This document shows positions 9,176 to 12,760 of a stretch of 64,000 bases of DNA, piece by piece. This DNA comes from Pirellulaceae bacterium (GTDB lineage: Bacteria > Planctomycetota > Planctomycetia > Pirellulales > Pirellulaceae), in contig JAQWSU010000060.1 in the NCBI GenBank assembly GCA_029243025.1, positions 1 to 64,000 of the forward strand, given 5' to 3'. How positions within the stretch are numbered: position 1 is the first letter of the stretch; the number at the start of each line of letters is the position of its first letter. The translations under genes and the position numbers were made by a program. The notes beneath the pieces are model-generated. The model was not told the origin of the DNA. It ran no database searches and was given only the letters and a program-made list of their open reading frames with translations.

Positions 9176-10897
9176 TTAGAGGCTGCGATAGGGTTCTCCG
9201 CGACCATAGAGAGTGAGACGACTTCGTAGTCGTCCTGATAACGGAAGATTGCCCGACCGTTCTGCGATCTCGATTGCTCGCTTGCTGACTCCGATGGCTT
9301 GAGAAAAGTCACCCGCTTCGGCCAGGCTGGCTGCGAGGGTATCGAGTAAACCCGGGTTGTTGTTTTGCGTGAGTTTGGCAGCATGAGTTGCCATTTTGAC
9401 TGCCATTTGACCGTTGCGAATATCATCGCGGGGATTTGTTGCCAGCTGCCATGCGAAATTATTTAACGCAATAAGATCGTTGGGGTTTACTTGTAAGGCT
9501 TGCCGATACTGATCGAGACCATCCTTGAGCTTACCGTCTTCAATTAATTGATCGCCTAGCCAGACGAGTATTTTTGAAAAATCACTATGCGTCTTGAGTG
9601 TTTCAAGGTGAGTTTGCGTAAAGGCCAAGACGTCCTCGGTAAACCCTCGCGTCAGAAGGTCTCGCGGTAAATCGAGCGAGGCTCGATTTGATGGGGAGCG
9701 GTTCCATTTGCCTGTGAATCTTGCCGCATAGGCTTTCCAATCGCTGGGGGAATCAGCGAGGTGTTGGACATCAGCGAGTATCTGCTGACTGTCAACCGGG
9801 CCGTGGTAAATCGCAGCCAGTTGGCCAGCTTGGTTGAAAAGGAGGCTGGTCGGTACGGGAATGTCGGCCTTTACGTTGAAATTGAGGTCGCGTATCAATC
9901 CGACACGGGTAAATAGTTCATCGGTGGCCAGCCCGGCGTCGAAGGGGAATTTAAGTTCCTGCAGGATTTTTTGGCTTGCAGGCCGCTTACCTGAGCGCGG
10001 CGCGGCGCCGTCCGTTGCCAGGACAAGAATATTGATTTTGGCCGCCCGGATTGCTTCAGCGTTTTGTGTCAACTCTTCCAGTTCAGCGAGGCAGGGGAGG
10101 CAGGTGGTTGACCAGAGGTTCACCAGCAACGGGCCCTGTACGGCGGGATCAATGATGCGTGTCTTTCCGTCGAACTGTCGGTAGGGTAGCCGAGTTGCTG
10201 GAATGGGATTGGAAAGTAAGATTCTGGCGCGGGGAGTCTCACTCGGGACGGGTTGATCTGTGGCTTGAATCTTCAGCTGTCGCTCTTGGCGGTGATCGGC
10301 GATCGCGGATGACTCTCCTTGTATCAGATGGTATCGCTGATCAGGCTGGAGTTTCGTAAACATCTGCGTTTCACCGCCGGGCCATCGTACTTCGACGTCA
10401 ATTGGCGTCTCGTTGTCGCCAAGGCCAAAATGAAGCCACTTGCTTGACTGCGAGAGGAAGCCTTCACCTGCTCGCAAAGTTTTGAGGAGCGGTTTTTCGC
10501 CGAGTTGTATCCGAACGGTCGCACCGATGGCGTCGCGGTTGCATTTCACCCCTTTGAGCCGGAGGCTGATAAAATGATGTTGCGTGGGGGTTTGGTTGCT
10601 GAGGAACCGAACTCGAGGAGCCGTCCGATTGCTGGTCCAAATATCAAGATCCCCATCGCCGTCCCAATCGCACACCGCCATACCTCGTGCGTCATCGGTG
10701 AAATCAAAACCGATGATCGATGCGATATTGGCGAAACGCTTGCCTTGGGTGTTCAGGAATGCGCAGTTGGCTTCTCGACCGCTCAGACTTCCACCTTGGC
10801 TCATCAGCTCATTTAGGCTTTTGAGGTTGCGACGATAGACTGATTCCGGATTGATTGCTGCTGAGAATTGTTCCTCGGAAACGGGCGAACGCGACAC
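9176..10897 (-). CDS. CRTAC1-type protein, C-terminal part: UnbV + TlpA-like redoxin + TPR
   Basis: The conventional start is GTG 10897 (573 aa), but the frame is open without interruption from base 10918, directly after the TGA ending the upstream frame. The bridging residues are SLLWRQV, then VSRSPV. Domains in order are: one more VCBS-like unit (CDWDGDGDLDIWTSNR); ASPIC/UnbV (HHFISLRLKG, CNRDAIGATVRIQ, AGEGFLSQSSKWLHFGLG, VEVRWPGG); a TlpA/thioredoxin-like domain with active site CLPC (LVNLWSTTCLPCLAELEEL); and TPR repeats (GLDQYRQALQVNPNDLIALN). There is no ribosome binding site for the GTG, which lies inside the hairpin at 10891-10907. I therefore think this is the second half of one protein with 10919-12760, made by TGA read-through, rather than a separate gene. 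Confidence 0.85.
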   Translation of the reverse strand: MSRSPVSEEQFSAAINPESVYRRNLKSLNELMSQGGSLSGREANCAFLNTQGKRFANIASIIGFDFTDDARGMAVCDWDGDGDLDIWTSNRTAPRVRFLSNQTPTQHHFISLRLKGVKCNRDAIGATVRIQLGEKPLLKTLRAGEGFLSQSSKWLHFGLGDNETPIDVEVRWPGGETQMFTKLQPDQRYHLIQGESSAIADHRQERQLKIQATDQPVPSETPRARILLSNPIPATRLPYRQFDGKTRIIDPAVQGPLLVNLWSTTCLPCLAELEELTQNAEAIRAAKINILVLATDGAAPRSGKRPASQKILQELKFPFDAGLATDELFTRVGLIRDLNFNVKADIPVPTSLLFNQAGQLAAIYHGPVDSQQILADVQHLADSPSDWKAYAARFTGKWNRSPSNRASLDLPRDLLTRGFTEDVLAFTQTHLETLKTHSDFSKILVWLGDQLIEDGKLKDGLDQYRQALQVNPNDLIALNNFAWQLATNPRDDIRNGQMAVKMATHAAKLTQNNNPGLLDTLAASLAEAGDFSQAIGVSKRAIEIAERSGNLPLSGRLRSRLTLYGRGEPYRSL

Positions 10898-10907
10898 GAC
10901 CTGTCGC
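10891..10907 (-). promoter_or_regulatory. SECIS-like hairpin 17 bases after the in-frame TGA
   Basis: On the minus strand the sequence GCGACAGGTCGTGTCGC folds into a perfect 6-bp stem (GCGACA with TGTCGC) and a 5-base loop GGTCG. The TGA is at 10921-10919 and the loop starts after 17 intervening bases. Bacterial SECIS elements lie in the coding region just after UGA, have a G in the first two loop positions and about 16-37 bases between UGA and loop; E. coli fdhF has the loop core AGGTCT. All these features are met here. The match is read by eye, not scored. Confidence 0.6.
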
Positions 10908-10918
10908 CACAGCAGGCT

Positions 10919-12760
10919 TCACATGTCGTCGGTCGACTCGCCGGTAATAAAGCCGTTGGTGACTAATAGGTCTTCCCAGCTGTCGTTGTTGATATCCACA
11001 AATTGAGACGCCCAGCTCCATCGTCCCATGGTGACGCCCGCTTCGACGCTCACATCTTCAAAGCGGTTGTTACCGAGGTTTCGGAATAGCGAATTCCCTC
11101 GGGCCAAATGTTGGAATTTGGCCCGAGTTTCTTCGTCGTATTGTGACTTGAAACGGGGCTGGAAGGTGACTCGATTACCAGCTGCTGAAAACATGTTGGA
11201 TACGTAGAGGTCGGCTTGGCCATCATGATCATAGTCGCCAAAACTAGCTGACATTCCGAAGGCACCATCGAGGAGCCCGACCTGCTTGGCAATCTCTTTG
11301 AATTGGCCCTCATCGTTCCGGTAAAGGTGATTTGGGCCAAAGTCGTTGACGACCAATAAATCGGAATCGCCGTCATTGTCGATGTCTTCCCAAGCAGATG
11401 CGAAGCTGAATCGGCGATTGTCCTGGTCGAGTCCGGTCGCTTCAGTGACGTCGGAGAATCGCCAGTTACCATCATTGCGAATCAAATGGTTGCTGCCGCC
11501 GTTTGTCGCGTCGAAGTAAGGGAGGGGGAGAGGTAAATTCGAGATCGATTCCTTCGGTCCGTAATAAACGCAAACGTACAAGTCGGTCAAACCGTCCAGA
11601 TCGTAGTCCGCAGCTGCCATCGAGAAACCCTGGGTGACGCTCGAAATCTTTGCTCGCTCCTGAAATCGACCCTTTCCGTCATTTTCCAAGAAAATAATTC
11701 CGCTTGCCAAGGCAACGACAAGGTCTTGGTCGGAGTCGTTGTCGAGGTCAATGAACAAAGCACTCCGAGTGTTGTCGAGATAGTCGAGAGATGCCGCCTG
11801 AGCCTCGTCACGGACGGTACCGTCTTCCTGCTGGACGAGCAGGTGGTTGGGGATCGCGCCTGTCTGACAAATGTAAATGTCGTCGAGTCCGTCACCGTTA
11901 ATATCACCAATTGCAAGGCCGTGATGGCCGAAATTGTAGACGCCGTGATTGTCTTCAATACGTGGGTGCCAATGAGCGATGTTGCGGAGTAAGGCTTCTT
12001 GGTAGATCGGCCAGTCCTGCACTAATGATGAGGTGCAGTCGACAAGCATCGGTTGGCCGATCGACGAGTTCGCCGAAACATGTTCGACATCAATCAGCCG
12101 TATCGATTCGATTTTCAGCTTCTTGCCTTTTTCTGTGGCCGTCCAATCAATCTCCCAAGTTGCGTTGTATTCGTGACGCCCTTCGGAGTTCTGACCACTC
12201 AAATGGAAATACTGTTGCGTCGATGGCGCGGCAGCTTGAAGATCCACTCGGAACAGTTTGAATTTGAAATGGACGTTGTCCAATTTCGCGGCCAAATTAC
12301 GTAAGTTACTGATGCCTGTCGGAAGGGATTGACTGTTGGGTAATGCTTCTGATGTTTGACCACGCCTTACTTCAAATACATCATCGCGAAATACGACGGG
12401 TAAATCGGTGGGTAACAGAGAAGAACAACGTGCCTCAGAGGTCGCGATTGATTCTAAATCCTGCTCAGTGGACTTGCCGAGGATTATCTCCCCAAGTTCG
12501 TTTAACTGTTGCATGCCCCGTCGACTGATGTCCTCAGAGTCCCAGCCATCCAAGGATGGATCATCAGCGGTCAGTCGAAACGAACGAAGCATGGGGAGCG
12601 GCATGTTCGCCAAGAGGTCGTCTGTTTGTCTCCGCGTCTGAGAGCGATCGACCATGGCACCATTCGGTGACTGCTGGGAATTGCAGCCGATTCCGATTGC
12701 TGCGAATAACAGCACGAATTCGGCCAGTGCCAGGCGAACTGAATCCAAGCGGAGTATCAT
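10919..12760 (-). CDS. CRTAC1-type VCBS/FG-GAP repeat lipoprotein, N-terminal part; ends at TGA possibly read as selenocysteine
   Basis: 613 codons from ATG 12760 to TGA 10919. The N-terminus ends its hydrophobic core with AAIGIGC, a probable lipobox, so the product is likely exported and lipid-anchored. Residues from about 270 onward carry calcium-binding VCBS/FG-GAP repeats (GDINGDGLDDIYI, DLDNDSDQDLVVALA, DYDLDGLTDLYVC, DIDNDGDSDLLVVND, DYDHDGQADLYVSNM), forming a beta-propeller. The frame stops at VTNGFITGESTDDM-TGA. Family members normally continue here with a segment ending WRQVV...SP and then the UnbV domain, and exactly that follows in the same frame. Full read-through would give 1194 residues with position 614 as the TGA codon. 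Possible calcium-dependent extracellular role; function unproven. Confidence 0.88.
   Translation of the reverse strand: MILRLDSVRLALAEFVLLFAAIGIGCNSQQSPNGAMVDRSQTRRQTDDLLANMPLPMLRSFRLTADDPSLDGWDSEDISRRGMQQLNELGEIILGKSTEQDLESIATSEARCSSLLPTDLPVVFRDDVFEVRRGQTSEALPNSQSLPTGISNLRNLAAKLDNVHFKFKLFRVDLQAAAPSTQQYFHLSGQNSEGRHEYNATWEIDWTATEKGKKLKIESIRLIDVEHVSANSSIGQPMLVDCTSSLVQDWPIYQEALLRNIAHWHPRIEDNHGVYNFGHHGLAIGDINGDGLDDIYICQTGAIPNHLLVQQEDGTVRDEAQAASLDYLDNTRSALFIDLDNDSDQDLVVALASGIIFLENDGKGRFQERAKISSVTQGFSMAAADYDLDGLTDLYVCVYYGPKESISNLPLPLPYFDATNGGSNHLIRNDGNWRFSDVTEATGLDQDNRRFSFASAWEDIDNDGDSDLLVVNDFGPNHLYRNDEGQFKEIAKQVGLLDGAFGMSASFGDYDHDGQADLYVSNMFSAAGNRVTFQPRFKSQYDEETRAKFQHLARGNSLFRNLGNNRFEDVSVEAGVTMGRWSWASQFVDINNDSWEDLLVTNGFITGESTDDM

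Follow-up and report, generated by a model that had tools for sequence, protein, structure and literature searches.

In Escherichia coli FdhF-type selenoproteins, selenocysteine (Sec) is encoded by a UGA followed directly by a small SelB-dependent hairpin, the bacterial Sec insertion sequence (bSECIS), with a G at the start of the loop and a spacing of 17 nt, and the genome carries SelA, SelB, SelD and tRNA-Sec. The same combination was found for a minus-strand gene of a Pirellulaceae bacterium (assembly GCA_029243025.1, contig JAQWSU010000060.1, designated C60). Coordinates refer to the window, the whole stretch of 64,000 nucleotides that was analyzed, which is the first 64 kb of the contig; the whole genome is 8.35 Mb. 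The encoded protein resembles CRTAC1/ASPIC-UnbV FG-GAP proteins in its FG-GAP repeats, its UnbV_ASPIC domain and its murine CRTAC1 fold (9etn, Z 39.8), but differs from them in a putative Sec-bearing helical insertion, a lipoprotein-like N-terminus, and a C-terminal TlpA-like domain with tetratricopeptide repeats (TPRs). With TlpA/ResA oxidoreductases it shares a thioredoxin (Trx)-like fold with CxxC, and with the catalogued UGC-containing TlpA selenoproteins it would share the combination of selenium with a TlpA-like domain in a single chain. Unlike the latter, its TlpA CxxC is without Sec, which would lie ~270 residues upstream in another domain. It also departs from known bacterial selenoproteins in that Sec would be placed in a helical insertion of a propeller and in that closer non-Sec homologues lack Cys.

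The reading frame was as an earlier note on this DNA had described it. Starting from 12760 on the minus strand, 613 codons lead to a TGA at 10921-10919, and 580 further codons follow in the same frame before the stop at 9176. From the sequence comparisons given below, UGA 614 is almost certainly decoded as Sec, and the gene very probably encodes one exported Sec lipoprotein of 1194 residues, for which a redox role is proposed. The features that bear on decoding are as follows.

9176..12760, minus strand: whole gene, a 1194-codon frame with one in-frame TGA (codon 614) and its stop codon at 9176-9178
10919..10921, minus strand: inferred Sec codon 614, an in-frame TGA in the context TDDM-U-SLLWRQVV, with a homologous TGA at 140 distinct sites
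10891..10907, minus strand: bSECIS-type hairpin with a 6 bp stem (GCGACA/TGTCGC), loop GGTCG, 17 nt from TGA to loop, -7.9 kcal/mol
G000:C60:108592-109518 (L252), on the same contig beyond the window: selD, whose Sec codon is likewise an in-frame UGA (SCAG-U-AGKLP)

The earlier note had proposed a search of the genome for selA, selB, selC (the tRNA-SeC gene) and selD, and all of them were present. A single SelA was detected (E 5.6e-143), with selB immediately upstream of selA in the same orientation, and tRNA-SeC (anticodon tca) lies on the contig shared with selA and selB. SelD (E 6.1e-105) contains one in-frame TGA, read-through of which gives VDYASCAG-U-AGKLP, so that in this genome a gene from an established selenoprotein family likewise uses UGA at the Sec position. 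This protein fits the UxxK motif given for Sec-type SelD in PMC13188914.

Recurrence of the TGA was assessed with motif, protein and profile searches. The exact motif TGA-N9-TGGCGNCRNGTNNYGNCGC matched 21 times in the source genome and 13 times in a genus-mate, and its backwards control matched neither genome. Over 60 related genomes, the exact TGA plus hairpin motif gave 69 matches in 13 genomes, compared with 3 for the backwards control (one of the 13, G014, looks like a chance match and was dropped; among the collected TGA sites, the plus-strand hit L068 was also dropped as chance). All 21 source-genome copies translate as U-S-x-x-W-R-[QR]-V-[VL]-[SA] and stand in long open frames. Upstream of the TGA these extend for 529 codons or more; downstream they extend for 480 or more, apart from one copy with 188. 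The family has been duplicated to 21 detected long-type copies in this genome. When the 60 related genomes were searched with the read-through protein, dozens of long homologues were recovered, almost all of them with a single TGA, and at least 11 different homologous genes in the source genome; up to 11 candidates were scored per genome, and copy numbers from profile searches are therefore lower bounds. The exception to the one-TGA pattern is a match in G002:C121 with two TGA and one TAG.

A profile of the site matched 84 of 392 genomes of the phylum (E 1e-15). Among the matches listed, 22 were without a stop (20 of these were retrieved) and the others had one TGA. A collection of named species contributed 34 TGA sites, located in 33 of the 80 loci kept from the matches listed. 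Records carrying TGA sites were named Planctomycetota, Verrucomicrobiales, Roseibacillus, Akkermansiaceae, Holophagales and Acidobacteria, among others, and a Pirellulaceae record (L165) has the same site sequence as a genome of the same family, G002 (L019). In total, 140 distinct homologous TGA sites were gathered. The candidate new selenoprotein of the earlier note is therefore larger than claimed, being a multi-copy family present in records of at least three phyla.

More than one type of site was seen. In 53 long-type and 8 ~820-residue-type sites, the TGA precedes S-x-x-W-R-x-V or x-C-x-W. The second type (DG-U-x-C-x-W-x-AVV; L024-L030, L033) has a shifted hairpin, GGCUGU/ACAGCC, no TlpA domain, and an invariant Cys two residues past Sec in 8/8. 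Divergent types with other stems are L130, L131, L135 and L134, L139 (EDL-U-PPFWKSVV; PDY-U-T-x-x-WRQVVAD).

The hairpin occupies 10907-10902 (GCGACA), 10901-10897 (GGTCG) and 10896-10891 (TGTCGC). The perfect 6-bp stem and the loop reported earlier were found unchanged; the 17 bases given with them are the distance from TGA to loop, which is the distance used by the SECIS rule, and the stem itself starts after 11 bases. The GGUC of the loop resembles that of E. coli fdhF. According to PMC13188914, a bSECIS has a loop of 3-9 nt with a G in the first two positions, a stem of 4-16 bp, a spacing of 16-37 nt and an energy of -7.5 or lower. These four rules were coded anew for this analysis, and the window hairpin conforms to all of them (stem 6, loop GGTCG, spacing 17, -7.9). 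They were then applied to the family, leaving out sites with N near the codon. For the control, the 15 downstream codons were swapped for synonymous ones by local usage. All four rules hold at 102 of the 140 distinct TGA sites, where the shuffles predict 9.9; for non-TGA homologues the corresponding values are 7 of 35 and 4.2 (five of the 35 rows are spurious profile matches, dropped before the tree was built). The best loop starts 16-21 nt past the TGA in 139/140 sites and is GGUCG in 83. Pairing in the 6-bp stem holds for 98.7% of cells across the 53 long-type sites, compared with 7-70% for slid versions, and double-sided exchanges of A-U for G-C or C-G occur in 6 cells, compared with 1.1 in shuffles. 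Conservation of the hairpin exceeds what the protein sequence demands.

Carriage of the site was compared with that of the Sec machinery. Of the 84 phylum genomes matched by the site profile, 79 have SelA, and of the 308 unmatched ones, 163 do (Fisher p 7e-14). The SelB C-terminal domain was found in each of the five site-match genomes without SelA (G208, G230, G271, G321 and G337; 67-91% complete), so that all 84 have SelA or SelB; the SelB search covered 15 genomes, a sample that does not give the rate of SelB in non-carriers. Among 60 close relatives, SelA was present in 12/12 carriers of the long-type motif and in 29/48 non-carriers. In G017 (Ala at the site) and G028, whose best-placed homologues are without TGA, no SelB domain was found and the best tRNA-Sec match was a tRNA-Ser.

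Residues replacing Sec were tabulated from aligned homologues (two off-register non-TGA codons, L064 and L065, appeared in this listing). Among the 22 non-TGA homologues of the phylum, the site is Glu in 6, Ala in 5, Gln, Asn and Arg in 3 each, and Asp and Ser in 1 each; the two from acidobacterial records carry Ser and Gln. Six distant paralogues (open frames of 579-893 residues; G034, G039, G044) have Cys in five cases (L240-L243, L245) and Gly in one, and keep the following Trp. The alignment at this codon that the earlier note had suggested therefore gave TGA in many homologues, and the Cys expected as its alternative in five of the six distant relatives retrieved and in none of the 24 closer ones. 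An exact Cys pattern (GAY-YTN-TGY-WSN-N6-TGG-MGN-N3-GTN) had 16 matches in the 392 phylum genomes; eight of the 16 were compared and none fits the family profiles. Fourteen remoter FG-GAP proteins, several from Bacteroidota, lack the Trp and were excluded from counts; they have Ile in five cases, Leu in four, and Gln, Thr, Met, Val or Cys in a single protein each, the Cys of L224 being in an unrelated context. In a tree of 170 sites, from which five spurious profile matches had been removed, Sec was placed at the midpoint root with 7 parsimony changes.

Several results weigh against decoding of UGA 614 as Sec and should be read beside those above. The Fisher tests ignore shared ancestry. G003, which is 99% complete and has a short-type TGA (L033), has no SelA at E 1e-40 and no SelB C-terminal domain, a pattern that could reflect an assembly gap or a lineage losing Sec; this exception is offset because G003 has tRNA-SeC (L302) and all 21 source-genome copies are in open frames. 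The absence of Cys from the closer non-TGA homologues (0/24) is unlike most selenoproteins, and the Sec/Cys comparison therefore rests on distant paralogues. As to the hairpin, 38 of the 140 TGA sites fail a bSECIS rule, many by energy alone (-7.3 versus -7.5), and the hairpins of L161, L175, L155 and L182 are weak or missing under the strict test. Double-sided changes are confined to two of the six stem pairs, a pair count reached in 73 of 500 shuffles. The minimum free energy of the 39 downstream nt is alike at TGA and non-TGA sites (-11.1 and -11.5, p 0.39). The lack of any double-sided change in the ~820-residue-type hairpin (8 sequences) is adverse or neutral.

Three explanations without Sec were weighed against these data. 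Were the TGA a true stop, the locus would be a two-protein operon in which the second start lies in or after the hairpin and the hairpin serves translational coupling. A plain listing of open reading frames (ORFs) does divide the copies in two, the GTG at 10897 does lie inside the hairpin as the earlier note had said, and the codon at its position is GTG in 45/53 long-type sites. Of the 53 sites, however, 5 have CTG there, 2 have GCG and 1 has TTG, so that a start is not strictly conserved. Site sets were mostly chosen with a Trp filter, and conservation of Trp was therefore taken from an unfiltered set, in which Trp stands four residues past the TGA in 34/34 sites; this is coding conservation ahead of any possible start. 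Non-TGA homologues are a single open frame through the site, and a coupling hairpin leaves unexplained both the link with SelA/SelB and co-loss with the CxxC described below. Re-initiation at GTG 10897 was rejected on the inconstant codon and on the coding conservation that begins directly past the TGA, and we regard a true stop as very improbable.

If anything less probable still is reading of UGA as an ordinary amino acid (Trp, Gly or Cys) by a changed code or a suppressor tRNA. The frame is indeed open once TGA is taken as sense, but in nearly all listed long homologues (the G002:C121 match is an exception) this codon holds the single TGA of the frame. The genome also encodes SelA, SelB and tRNA-SeC, its selD has a UGA as Sec codon, and ordinary recoding would make the hairpin unnecessary. 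General recoding was rejected. A sequencing error or pseudogene could likewise account for an isolated TGA that splits a frame; since the same TGA occurs at 140 distinct homologous sites over many assemblies, an error is very unlikely, and we consider the chance of either negligible. The earlier note had named in advance outcomes that would speak against read-through, namely a genome without Sec machinery, homologues with neither Cys nor TGA, lack of a conserved hairpin, and a sequencing error. None of them applies, and the machinery, the recurrent TGA and the conserved hairpin together argue for read-through as Sec.

Regions of the 1194-codon gene (FG-GAP propeller, UnbV/ASPIC, TlpA-like thioredoxin and TPR) were assigned from a domain search of the read-through protein, from a fold model and by structure comparison, as follows.

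12683..12760, minus strand: putative N-terminal signal peptide with lipobox-like GIGC (residues 23-26), from the sequence by eye
10313..12076, minus strand: CRTAC1-like beta-propeller plus UnbV region (residues 229-816), from domain search, fold model and structure comparison
10763..10765, minus strand: Cys666 codon, candidate partner of Sec
10331..10531, minus strand: UnbV_ASPIC domain (residues 744-810), E 1.6e-18
9815..10171, minus strand: TlpA/AhpC-TSA-like thioredoxin domain (residues 864-982), AhpC-TSA E 1.4e-4, TlpA 1jfu profile E 7.1e-17, ResA/TlpA folds
10091..10102, minus strand: CxxC (C887, C890) of the TlpA-like domain, retained with Sec and lost with Sec
9203..9580, minus strand: C-terminal TPR helices (residues 1061-1186), from domain search and fold model

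The N-terminus is probably that of a lipoprotein, GIGC at residues 23-26 being what we take to be a lipobox-like sequence. FG-GAP_3 was matched at E 2.8e-40. The fold model has a mean predicted local distance difference test (pLDDT) score of 86.6, and its best structural match is murine CRTAC1 9etn (Z 39.8, 2.3 Å, 454 residues; Foldseek E 9.6e-23, phmmer E 2.3e-12). FG-GAP repeats, UnbV_ASPIC domain and CRTAC1 fold thus all place the protein among the CRTAC1/ASPIC-UnbV proteins. In the model, residue 614 starts a helix (613-624), and the helical stretch 613-654 is an insertion between propeller strands, one ending at 602 and the next starting at 666. The TlpA-like domain matches ResA and TlpA folds in the model. 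Its AhpC-TSA match is under the Pfam cut-off, and the NCBIfam TlpA model is also under its cut-off; the assignment was made from the Trx-like fold and the CxxC, of which C887 and C890 are invariant among 25 aligned proteins.

Presence of Sec was then compared with presence of other Cys residues. Of the 119 Sec proteins in which the TlpA domain is in reach, 115 have its CxxC; of the 17 non-Sec homologues that keep the domain, none does. Before 20 loci were added, the counts were 118/123 (an N in the codon accounts for one of the five exceptions) and 0/17. Five Sec rows (L091, L055, L053, L096 and L181) were scored as without TlpA, apparently because N bases were taken as stops. No TlpA match was found in the complete ORF of 8 other non-Sec, non-Cys homologues and of the 5 Cys homologues. 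Cys666 is present at 100/140 Sec sites, compared with 1/25 homologues with neither Sec nor Cys. Joint losses of Sec and CxxC fall at about four places in the tree (most of L110-L125; L114/L257; L170 plus L184; L023), two of them weakly supported (0.57 and 0.65).

With these data we somewhat favor a model in which Sec614 is an extracytoplasmic thiol/selenol redox center, paired with Cys666 and exchanging electrons with the CxxC of its own TlpA-like domain. By this model, UGA 614 and the bSECIS-type hairpin would direct insertion of Sec via SelA, SelB, SelD and tRNA-Sec to give one chain of 1194 residues, which would be exported as a lipoprotein by way of the lipobox-like GIGC. Sec614, at the start of the helix inserted in the CRTAC1-like beta-propeller, would form a pair with Cys666 and would be re-reduced by, or donate electrons to, the TlpA-like CxxC; the C-terminal TPRs may bind a partner. 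Some observations count against such coupling. Of the 17 non-Sec proteins, 4 have gaps in the CxxC columns, two retain a single Cys of the pair, and one, L265, has a CLLC elsewhere in its TlpA-like domain. Some Sec proteins (the ~820-residue type and a few short forms) have no TlpA domain, so that a TlpA partner is not universal.

Alternatively, Sec may be inserted and yet be structural or vestigial, with a propeller that merely binds partners and a TlpA link that is a coincidence of ancestry. This would agree with the several lineages that have swapped Sec for Glu, Gln, Ala, Asp, Asn, Arg or Ser while keeping the protein, and with a propeller that resembles CRTAC1 and no known redox enzyme. 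It is harder to square with the loss of CxxC from all 17 non-Sec homologues that keep the TlpA-like domain, at the tree places given above, and with retention of Sec in 21 source-genome copies. We judge a structural or vestigial Sec to be unlikely.

Earlier reports of such proteins were sought in several ways. Among the 119 prokaryotic selenoprotein families of a 2026 catalogue (PMC13188914), none is named FG-GAP, UnbV or CRTAC1 in Table 1. NCBIfam release 20 gave three matches to the protein, none of them to a selenoprotein model. Full-text literature searches, with preprints and most subscription papers outside their scope, showed no FG-GAP/UnbV/CRTAC1 selenoprotein among the hits listed. 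The proteins thus appear to form a large selenoprotein family without an earlier report in the literature searched. The authors of deep-Sep caution that selenoproteins lacking Cys homologues may escape their method (PMC12013277). The family may have been overlooked because its closer homologues lack Cys, which fits that limit. The same paper gives at least 46 genes in all for the largest bacterial selenogenome reported.

If decoding as Sec is correct, one genome has 21 Sec genes of one family, Planctomycetota, Verrucomicrobiota and some Acidobacteriota have a large hidden selenoproteome, and Sec occurs in a beta-propeller, a setting remote from its usual Trx fold. Filters that require close Cys homologues would miss such families, which is a blind spot. 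On balance we lean towards a multi-phylum superfamily of exported selenoproteins, with more than 20 copies in one genome, in which a propeller Sec and an in-chain TlpA domain form a two-center relay. It also seems a reasonable, if not a secure, supposition that a selenium-based extracytoplasmic redox system of this kind has stayed hidden because plain ORF calling splits the genes and close homologues lack Cys. The co-loss of Sec and the distant CxxC would make a two-center mechanism directly testable.

Related genes were also noted beside Sec copies. A 781-residue FG-GAP/UnbV protein (L248:1994-4339, minus strand) is encoded beside two tandem Sec copies, and an ordinary CRTAC1-like FG-GAP/UnbV gene adjoining a TPR protein gene (L249:9003-11992, minus strand) lies next to a Sec copy. 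Genes for PEP-CTERM proteins, some with dockerin or laminin-G, are found near Sec copies in L248, L250 and L251.

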